Shown here piece after piece: positions 37,643 to 40,862 of a stretch of 64,000 bases of DNA (position 1 is its first letter; every line of letters starts with the position of its first letter). This DNA comes from a virus. Made by a program: the position numbers and the translations under genes. The stretch covers positions 1-64,000 of the IMG/VR virus record IMGVR_UViG_3300027762_000214. One strand, given 5' to 3'. Below the pieces are notes generated by a model. It was not told where the DNA came from. It searched no databases and saw nothing but the letters and a program-made list of their open reading frames with translations.

Positions 37643-38071
37643 ATGAGCTATGAGAATCCTTGGAGATTCAATGGAGAAGTTTTTGAGTCTTCTAATATTC
37701 AAGATTATTTTGGTTTTGTTTATCATATACACTGCACTACAACTGGTCGTAGTTACATTGGTAGAAAATATTTCTGGAGTTTCCGAACACCGAAGGGAAA
37801 ATCTAGAAAGGTTAAAGGAGAGTCCGATTGGAAAAATTATTACGGATCATGTCCCGAACTCAAAGCCGATGTTAACCTTTGGGGAAAGGCATCCTTCAAC
37901 AGAACAATACTTAGCCTCCATAAAACAAAAGGACAATGTAACTACGAAGAAACCAAACAGCTTTTCCTAAATAATGTATTGATAGAGTCGCTTGACGATG
38001 GCACCCCTGCGTACTACAATAGCAATATCCTAGGACGCTACATGCGAAAAGACTATGGTAACTTTGATTGA
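37643..38071 (+). CDS. GIY-YIG-type endonuclease-like protein
   Basis: A 142-residue protein with FGFVYHIHCTTTGRSYIGRK, which fits the GIY-YIG pattern (FVY then YIG with a following Arg), then YYGSCPELKA and a conserved-looking KGQCNYEETKQLFLNN. GIY-YIG domains are found in homing nucleases such as I-TevI and in T4 seg proteins. The absence of a visible DNA-binding extension suggests a free-standing nuclease. It has dual promoters. Confidence 0.75.
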   Translation: MSYENPWRFNGEVFESSNIQDYFGFVYHIHCTTTGRSYIGRKYFWSFRTPKGKSRKVKGESDWKNYYGSCPELKADVNLWGKASFNRTILSLHKTKGQCNYEETKQLFLNNVLIESLDDGTPAYYNSNILGRYMRKDYGNFD

Positions 38072-38246: not shown

Positions 38247-38951
38247 ATGCAAATTGATCTCCATAATTTCTTTAAATTTTATGATGAAAAAAATCCAAAA
38301 CATGTTGCAGCAGTAGAGCAACTTGAGAAAGATCTTCTTGCGAGAGCAAATGATCTAATGCAAGATAATGCAAATTGGGTTAGAATTTTTAGGTCAACGG
38401 TAGAAGCACCAAAGACAGATATTTTACAAGTTCCTTTCTATCCTCAGACAGATAACTATAGGGACGCACAAAGAACTTGTAATTCCTCATCTTGTGCTAT
38501 GTGTCTTGAGTATTTCAAACCAGGAACACTTCAAGGACCTAAAGGCGATGATGCCTACATTCAGAAAGTTTTCGCAGTGGGCGATACAACTGATCATTCC
38601 GTTCAAACAAAAGTTTTATCATCTTACGGTATTAATTCACGATTTAGTTACAATCTCTCTTTTGCTGATCTTGATAGGGAGCTTGCCGCTGGGAGACCTG
38701 TCATTATCGGGATTCTTCATCGGGGTACTTTATCTTCACCTACTGGCGGGCACATGGTTGTAGTGATTGGTAAGACTGCTTCTGGGGATTATGTTGTTAA
38801 TGACCCTTATGGATCATTAAACGATAGTTATACTGGACCTGTTACAAACGGAAGAGGTGCTGTATATAAGAAGTCTGTCCTAGAAAAAAGATGGACTGTT
38901 GATGGACCATCTTCAGGATGGGGGAGAATATTTGAAACAAAAAAGTCTTGA
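38247..38951 (+). CDS. C39-like cysteine peptidase, upstream half of a probable frameshifted lysin
   Basis: A 234-residue protein. After an N-terminal helical region (1-55) comes the peptidase domain with QVPFYPQTDNYRDAQRTC, where Cys78 is the likely nucleophile, then GGHMVVVIGK with the His and VVNDPYGS with the Asp/Asn. These are the elements of the Peptidase_C39_2 family. It has no signal peptide. The gene ends ACA AAA AAG TCT TGA, in which A AAA AAG is a classical -1 slippery heptamer, and the lysozyme ORF lies in the -1 frame. Together they may make a bifunctional lysin. Confidence 0.8.
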   Translation: MQIDLHNFFKFYDEKNPKHVAAVEQLEKDLLARANDLMQDNANWVRIFRSTVEAPKTDILQVPFYPQTDNYRDAQRTCNSSSCAMCLEYFKPGTLQGPKGDDAYIQKVFAVGDTTDHSVQTKVLSSYGINSRFSYNLSFADLDRELAAGRPVIIGILHRGTLSSPTGGHMVVVIGKTASGDYVVNDPYGSLNDSYTGPVTNGRGAVYKKSVLEKRWTVDGPSSGWGRIFETKKS

Positions 38952-38980
38952 GTTCTACTTCAGGCATAAGTGAAGGTGAA
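38920..38980 (+). promoter_or_regulatory. Probable programmed -1 ribosomal frameshift signal
   Basis: Slippery heptamer A AAA AAG at 38939-38945 is in the correct phase of the C39 frame. A Shine-Dalgarno-like GGGGGAG (38920-38926) lies 12 bases upstream. Downstream after 7 bases is a stem-loop with arms TTC..CTTCA (38953-38962) and TGAAG..GAA (38971-38980). This is the three-part layout of the dnaX frameshift. A -1 shift reads on through GTC TTG AGT into the lysozyme frame and bypasses the TGA at 38949-38951. Confidence 0.7.
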
Positions 38981-39439
38981 TTGCCTATAAGAGGAGTAGA
39001 ACTTATAAAAGAATTTGAAGGATGTCATTTGAATGCATATCCAGATCCACTAACTGGGGGACTTCCGATTACAATTGGGTGGGGAAGTACAAAAGATTTT
39101 GATGGACAACCTTTTAAAGTTGGTAGAAAAATCACTCAAAAGTATGCCGATGCTTTATTAGAGTTTGATCTTAAAAATCGTTTTCTATTTTCACTCAAAA
39201 ATATCCCTTACTGGAATGAAATGAATGAAAACCAACAAGGTGCTCTTCTATCTTTTGCTTATAATCTTGGTGCTCGCTTTTACGGGTCTTCTAATTTTAA
39301 TACCATCACTAAAGTATTAAAAAACAAAGAATGGGATAAAGTTCCTGATGCTCTTTATCTTTATCACAACCCAGGAACAAAAGTTGCTGAGGGATTGAAG
39401 AGAAGAAGAATTGCTGAAGGAAAACTTTGGTCTTCTTAA
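38948..39439 (+). CDS. T4-type lysozyme (GH24), no ATG or GTG start
   Basis: A 163-residue reading frame for a GH24 muramidase: VELIKEFEGCHLNAYPD has the catalytic Glu and Asp, PITIGWG follows, and NENQQGALLSFAYNLG and VAEGLKRRRIAEGKLW complete the fold. The frame has no ATG or GTG before the domain; the first possible start is TTG at 38948, inside the overlap with the C39 stop, and no ribosome site is well placed for it. Synthesis by -1 frameshift from the peptidase gene is the better explanation. It would cleave host murein for lysis or, in the virion, for entry. The stop overlaps that of the convergent minus-strand gene. Confidence 0.85.
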   Translation: MSSTSGISEGELPIRGVELIKEFEGCHLNAYPDPLTGGLPITIGWGSTKDFDGQPFKVGRKITQKYADALLEFDLKNRFLFSLKNIPYWNEMNENQQGALLSFAYNLGARFYGSSNFNTITKVLKNKEWDKVPDALYLYHNPGTKVAEGLKRRRIAEGKLWSS

Positions 39440-40193: not shown

Positions 40194-40862
40194 ATGCAAA
40201 ACTTCTTTACTGTAGCCCTGCCTCTTATGGCAACGGTTACAACCAGTACGGCATCACTGCCATTCGTCAACTACAAGATGCAAGGTCCTCCACCACCAGT
40301 GGAACCAACGACTAAACCATTTGCTATTATCAAAGAATTTGAACTTGTAGATGAAAAGAAGACAGCAATCCGCGAGGTTGCACCATCAAAGCCAAAACAG
40401 ACAAGGCTAATTTGTAAAGGGTGTAATGAACATGAGAATGCTACCCTGGCATTTTTCCAGGATCGTGGTGTTAAAGACAGAAACGCCCTTGCTACTATCA
40501 TGGGCAATATTAGACAAGAATCCACATTCGTGCCTAATATCTGCGAAGGTGGTAGCAGAACCAGTTGGAATAACTGTGGACGCGGTTATGGACTGATTCA
40601 ATGGACATCTGCCGATCGTTATTATGGATTGGGTGATTTTGCTAAGAAGTATGGAGGATCTCCGTCATCACTTCAAACGCAACTTCGTTATCTAACGACT
40701 GAAGTTCAATGGCAACGTATTGAGAACAGGATGAAAACTCCTGGTAAGTCTATCAATAGTTACATGGACTATGCGTATAGTTGGATTGGTTGGGGGCATC
40801 ATGGTGCCCGCACTTCGTATGCACATGAATATGCTAACCGACTAATCACGGTAGAAGTTTAA
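40194..40862 (+). CDS. Exported lysozyme-like protein (Phage_lysozyme2 type)
   Basis: A 222-residue protein. The N-terminus MQNFFTVALPLMATVTTST looks like a signal peptide or anchor. A Pro-rich linker follows, then a lytic domain with ATIMGNIRQESTFVPN, where the Glu of IRQES is likely catalytic, and GYGLIQWTSADRY and WGHHGARTSYAHEYANRL. This resembles the lysozyme-like domains of phage tails and exported endolysins. It has a sigma-70 promoter and a structured leader, unlike the late lysozyme upstream, so it may be made earlier. Confidence 0.8.
   Translation: MQNFFTVALPLMATVTTSTASLPFVNYKMQGPPPPVEPTTKPFAIIKEFELVDEKKTAIREVAPSKPKQTRLICKGCNEHENATLAFFQDRGVKDRNALATIMGNIRQESTFVPNICEGGSRTSWNNCGRGYGLIQWTSADRYYGLGDFAKKYGGSPSSLQTQLRYLTTEVQWQRIENRMKTPGKSINSYMDYAYSWIGWGHHGARTSYAHEYANRLITVEV

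Follow-up and report, generated by a model that had tools for sequence, protein, structure and literature searches.

Two overlapping open reading frames of a T4-like cyanophage, one encoding a C39-like peptidase and the other a GH24 lysozyme, very probably form a single recoded endolysin gene, predicted from sequence to yield a short and a long product by -1 frameshifting. The window analysed here, 64,000 nucleotides, comes from a virus record of 71,431 bases, and its phage is a T4-like cyanophage infecting cyanobacteria; judged at this locus, its closest relatives in culture are S-SRM01, S-PM2 and S-CREM1 (T4-like cyanophages, Kyanoviridae). The locus carries the sequence elements of a -1 cassette, namely an X XXY YYZ heptamer in the overlap, a covarying downstream structure and a conserved -1 ORF that lacks a start of its own in many relatives and has only TTG in the window. 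The anatomy of the locus, the in-phase heptamer, the covarying stem, the loss of lysozyme starts, the conservation of the arrangement and the retention of a two-product output when polarity reverses are all read directly from sequence; slippage in the cell, and its efficiency, are what we infer.

Table 1. Features of the predicted recoded endolysin locus, in window coordinates
Feature	Position	Strand	Basis
Zero-frame ORF, ATG to TGA, 234 aa: N-terminal helical domain and C39-like peptidase; predicted unshifted product	38247..38951	+	ORF and profile match
N-terminal domain of about 50 aa (DLHNFFKFYDEKNPKHVAAVEQLE...), the head common to all isoforms in relatives	38247..38396	+	alignment, AF2
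Peptidase_C39_2 domain (PF13529)	38424..38810	+	profile match
GGGGGAG, Shine-Dalgarno-like, 12 nt before the heptamer; part of WGR codons	38920..38926	+	sequence
TGA closing the -1 (lysozyme) frame on its upstream side	38933..38935	+	sequence
In-phase slippery heptamer, A AAA AAG	38939..38945	+	sequence, relatives
Zero-frame stop TGA, one codon past the heptamer; overlaps TTG 38948-38950	38949..38951	+	sequence
Putative stimulatory stem-loop: 38949-38961 (TGAGTTCTACTTC) pairs with 38993-39005 (GGAGTAGAACTTA)	38949..39005	+	folding, covariation
-1 frame: linker and GH24 lysozyme; predicted fusion entry at GTC 38945	38936..39439	+	ORF, profile match
Phage_lysozyme domain (PF00959)	39008..39418	+	profile match

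Both enzymatic assignments have profile matches above the cut-off: the Peptidase_C39_2 match (E 8e-14) scores 52.8 bits against a curated cut-off of 24, and the Phage_lysozyme match (E 8e-23) 81.5 bits against 22.3. The consensus motifs RTCNSS, GGHM and DPYG supply the peptidase's Cys, His and Asp, and EFEG...YPD...TIGWG contains the Glu-8x-Asp-Thr catalytic motif of the lysozyme. In comparisons of modelled structures, the peptidase fold resembles the ComA peptidase and the lysozyme fold P22 lysozyme and GH24 muramidases. Two neighbouring genes are worth recording: an upstream one (37643-38071) resembles GIY-YIG endonucleases, often labelled NAD synthetase in cyanophage records, and a 222-aa ORF at 40194-40862, with the motifs GNIRQESTF...YGLIQW, resembles another phage-type muramidase, or a tail lysozyme, encoded near the endolysin.

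The C39 ORF ends in GAA ACA AAA AAG TCT TGA; its zero frame reads AAA and AAG as codons, so that A AAA AAG closes the gene in phase, as an earlier sequence-only reading had proposed. Because the -1 frame is closed upstream by a TGA, any shift is confined to the 16 bases 38936-38951, which contain the heptamer. That reading had also placed the lysozyme in the -1 frame without ATG or GTG, noted the GGGGGAG element 12 nt before the heptamer and estimated a fusion of about 395 residues. These points hold for the window: the -1 frame has neither ATG nor GTG ahead of the lysozyme core, the element is present, and joining the two frames gives a conceptual fusion of 397 aa, whose junction reads ...ETKKVLSSTSG. 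At the overlap, translation could start solely on TTG 38948, which forms a TTGA with the C39 stop; a second in-frame TTG lies further in.

Most ribosomes would read A AAA AAG TCT TGA in frame 0 and terminate, giving the N-terminal domain (N-domain) and C39 peptidase. The stem-loop would delay some of them with the two Lys codons in the P and A sites, where both tRNA-Lys could move back one base to pair with AAA AAA; reading would then continue in the -1 frame into the lysozyme to produce the peptidase-lysozyme. Slippage of this kind may hold the ratio of peptidase alone to fusion constant, as had been suggested. With respect to the tRNA supply, we searched by pattern alone 41 genomes from the family of a PsbA-bearing Cyanobium contig (picocyanobacteria), taken as a stand-in for the host; tRNA-Lys(UUU)-like genes occur in 39 of the 41 and tRNA-Lys(CUU)-like genes in three. 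None of the nine tRNAs found in the window is a tRNA-Lys. In E. coli, a lone tRNA-Lys has been held responsible for making AAG slippery (Atkins et al. 2016, PMC5009743).

Comparative evidence strongly supports the reading of the locus as a C39-lysozyme frameshift fusion, the heptamer, the stem and the loss of the start all recurring among relatives. We gathered 213 distinct lysozyme loci of the family from IMG/VR scans and cultured phages; they share ancestry, and counts among them do not represent independent events. A split arrangement, with C39 followed by a -1 lysozyme, is found in 104 distinct loci. Rather than lacking the heptamer and having a normal start codon, 90 of these hold an in-phase slippery heptamer in the overlap (85 A AAA AAG, one A AAA AAA, three T TTT TTT, one C CCA AAG), mostly abutting the stop codon, as in A AAA AAG TAG. 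In other genes, in-phase A AAA AAG occurs at about 3e-4 per codon, and Lys-Lys is written AAA AAG about 20% of the time. The heptamer falls within the last five codons in 1 of about 394 non-C39 genes versus roughly 70 of 107 C39 genes.

The same junctions bear on whether the lysozyme could instead be made separately, as a 163-aa protein, by ribosomes that terminate at the C39 TGA and restart on the overlapping TTG, a reading that we consider unlikely. All 14 split junctions without a heptamer have a start overlapping the stop (ATG in 13, GTG in one) and no stem; the use of ATGA by relatives of this kind speaks for reinitiation. A start also overlaps the stop in 14 of the 90 heptamer-bearing junctions, among them S-SRM01 and its kin, which carry ATGA as well as the heptamer, and the TTG of the window might make a small contribution of this kind. 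The difference between 14/14 and 14/90 is nevertheless pronounced (Fisher p 5e-10). Ahead of the lysozyme core, 50 of the 90 are devoid of ATG, GTG and TTG alike, and 77 have no ATG; heptamer and stem are kept in start-less relatives and lost where ATGA stands without the heptamer. Moreover, TTG is a weak start, and no Shine-Dalgarno sequence lies at the right distance from it.

For predicted frameshifting, cultured phages offer examples. The lysozymes of S-PM2 (L003:3169-3678) and S-CAM7 (L006:3190-3717) lack ATG, GTG and TTG; for want of a start codon in the frame, their lysins have been annotated as truncated ORFs of only 72 and 90 aa, and in both the full lysozyme frame extends back to the heptamer. 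Recoding would account for these truncated 'lysin' annotations. Two further variants were observed. In L286:3190-3804 and the similar L290, L294, L012 and L082, the heptamer has been lost, ATGA is present and the lysozyme has gained an extension at its N-terminus (MSIKFTDAVKYHQDLPHQ...), perhaps in place of the N-domain that the frameshift would otherwise provide. In S-CRM01 (L009:2321-2960), the C-terminus of the lysozyme lies in another frame past an A-rich stretch (KEKDGTMSPQL*), reflecting either a sequencing error or another frameshift.

The stem-loop that had been proposed downstream of the heptamer is borne out by folding and by covariation. In the window it is a 13-bp helix of -21.0 kcal/mol (z -3.44) that begins 3 nt past the heptamer, or 6 nt if the UGA pairs are left out. 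Across relatives, stem coordinates were fixed by the heptamer and the lysozyme core and not fitted; at these coordinates, pairing of the arms falls into three registers that differ by one codon each, and double changes are numerous. A single anchored register proved insufficient. When each of 40 distinct arm pairs is set in the register that suits it best, 92.8% of cells are paired, a percentage favoured by the choice of register, so the double changes carry more weight: 130 cells, as against 46 expected in shuffles. The covariation value is 0.844 versus 0.224, and it falls to 0.22 or less when the partner is slid by 1-3 columns. Relative to dinucleotide shuffles, mean helix scores reach z values, inflated by kinship, of 37 for split C39 genes, 19 for split genes with a bare N-domain, and 8.8 and 7.1 for the in-frame classes with the heptamer, and -0.5 for split genes without it. 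The stems of in-frame N-domain-lysozyme genes are individually weak (11 of 50 at p<=0.05). At the position of the Shine-Dalgarno-like element, relatives mostly have GGGGTAGA or GGGGAAGA; the Arg codon is AGA in 70 of 90 versus a background of 55%, weakly in favour of a conserved stimulator, and beyond the split C39 genes the element is absent from the other classes. GGGGGAG arises largely from the conserved W-G-R codons.

A second split class, with a bare N-domain protein of about 73 aa followed by a -1 lysozyme, comprises 23 distinct loci, in each of which G GGA AAG abuts the stop and a strong stem lies 3-6 nt downstream. G GGA AAG is the heptamer of phage lambda G/GT. An ATGATG shortly ahead of the lysozyme core in these genes counts against a frameshift reading of this class. 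In L168:200-421 and others (L169-L202), the N-domain protein ends in CPHCGK(S/P)LGK, half of a zinc ribbon adjoining the heptamer. The identity of the heptamers also bears on transcriptional slippage, by which RNA polymerase would add an A within the A6 run and the fusion would arise by ordinary translation. The locus does have an A homopolymer, and two relatives carry A7 and are in frame; the run, however, is exactly six in 82 of 83 cases, a short stretch for a polymerase to slip on, the sites of sister genes (G GGA AAG and C CCA AAG) suit tandem tRNA slippage and are no homopolymers, and the downstream stem is conserved at ribosome spacing. We regard this origin of the fusion as very improbable.

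The family also contains genes in which the long product is read in one frame, and many of these retain the slippery site with its polarity reversed. Among 53 distinct in-frame fusions of the N-domain to the lysozyme, 44 have A AAA AAG after Arg-Gly, and a -1 slip there ends after 3 (34 genes), 11 (5) or 17 (5) codons, which would leave the N-domain alone; in an earlier set, Gly-Lys-Lys was encoded GGA AAA AAG in 48 of 48. The 23 distinct in-frame C39-lysozyme fusions divide into six with A AAA AAG, two with A7 and 15 without a heptamer. In the six (the Synechococcus phage ACG-2014f group, L248 and L270), the -1 frame stops after three codons. A shift would thus give the shorter product, the true dnaX polarity, in L005, L248, L270 and the 44 of 53 in-frame N-domain-lysozyme genes. 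The heptamer was expected in marine in-frame C39-lysozyme fusions, and most were found without it: it is lacking in 15 distinct, mostly marine, fusions of this kind and in six in-frame N-domain-lysozyme genes, so dual output is not universal and some phages manage with one product. Fusions of reversed order, lysozyme before C39 (the S-CREM1 type; L004:2006-3187, L089, L126, L133, L139), lie in one frame and show no frameshift signal.

That in-frame fusions exist (phrog_3617, ACG-2014f) leaves room for the idea that the split genes are pseudogenes or sequencing errors, a once-fused lysozyme broken by a frameshift. In more than 100 distinct split genes, those of the cultured phages S-PM2 and S-CAM7 among them, the lysozyme frame is intact and the recoding signal is kept, which makes this idea barely credible. 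The two A7 genes (L083:2501-3709, L249:2501-3685) read C39 and lysozyme in one frame via A7 instead of A6, and a -1 slip in them ends after 13 codons; such one-base indels may be a route by which polarity flips, or may be assembly slips.

On a quick lysozyme tree with many weak forks, split and in-frame genes are mixed inside supported clades: L197 with L277 (support 99), L248 and L270 with L023, L030 and L064 (99), L249 with L147 (97), and L007 within the split N-domain genes (97). The product that needs the slip has therefore changed several times, and part of this mixing could be due to recombination of the lysozyme domain. Polarity thus appears, as judged from these sequences, to have flipped repeatedly with both products still encoded, which argues strongly for a need of two endolysin isoforms.

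The most likely purpose of the predicted frameshift is to set the ratio of the short, N-domain-bearing isoform to the full lysin. Having survived many sequence changes, the two-product arrangement probably matters for the bursting of the host cell. The N-domain is the one part present in every isoform, and structure searches with it returned weak matches only, to other cyanophage endolysins. An AF2 model of an in-frame relative has three modules and a disordered linker (238-248) that corresponds to the junction. By analogy with endolysins that have internal starts, the short isoform is probably wanted as such, either as a partner in assembly with the full lysin or as an aid to it. In CTP1L, LysIME-EF1, Lys170 and Ply2638A, internal starts yield full-length and short isoforms from one gene, and in several such lysins the two assemble, or both are needed for the best lysis (PMC12203907). 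Whether two isoforms are wanted is the question raised for those endolysins (PMC12203907). We tentatively suggest, at somewhat less than even confidence, that the endolysin is a hetero-oligomer whose subunit ratio is fixed by frameshifting, in which the N-domain would be an assembly or wall-targeting unit supplied in extra copies with or without the peptidase, and that small indels flip the slip-dependent product while the pair is preserved, so that selection would hold the output of the switch and leave its polarity free.

In the literature accessible outside most subscription journals, no endolysin was found that is described as a product of programmed frameshifting. Setting the isoform ratio of an endolysin is predicted to be a new and widespread use of -1 frameshifting, one that would add lysis to the few phage functions controlled through recoding. 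The natural series of sites (A AAA AAG, G GGA AAG, T TTT TTT, C CCA AAG), stems and polarities on one protein should be useful for working out cyanobacterial frameshift rules.

Several known systems can be set beside this locus. The C39-lysozyme endolysin of cyanophages (phrog_3617; ACG-2014f YP_009134422.1) shares its domains, their order and full-length homology; unlike the window gene it lies in one frame, with the heptamer and a -1 stop in some members and no heptamer in others. The likeness to tau/gamma of E. coli dnaX, proposed in the sequence-only reading, stands for A AAA AAG, the downstream stem-loop, presumed hosts with a single tRNA-Lys(UUU) and isoforms sharing an N-terminus. Polarity differs, since the shift in the window would give the long product; the Shine-Dalgarno-like element, present in the window, is not conserved across the classes; and the gene is an endolysin. 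The dnaX polarity is the one found in the in-frame relatives. Like the tail-assembly chaperone G/GT of lambda, the window has a phage gene with a start-less second ORF in the -1 frame, although the lambda proteins serve tail assembly and these form a lysis enzyme. Endolysins with internal starts also come as two isoforms, but their short form is the C-terminal part, whereas here it is the N-terminal part and would come from unshifted ribosomes (from shifted ones in the reversed relatives). An internal start was set aside as the source of the two forms in the window, where the short form shares the N-terminus of the long one and ends at the zero-frame stop.
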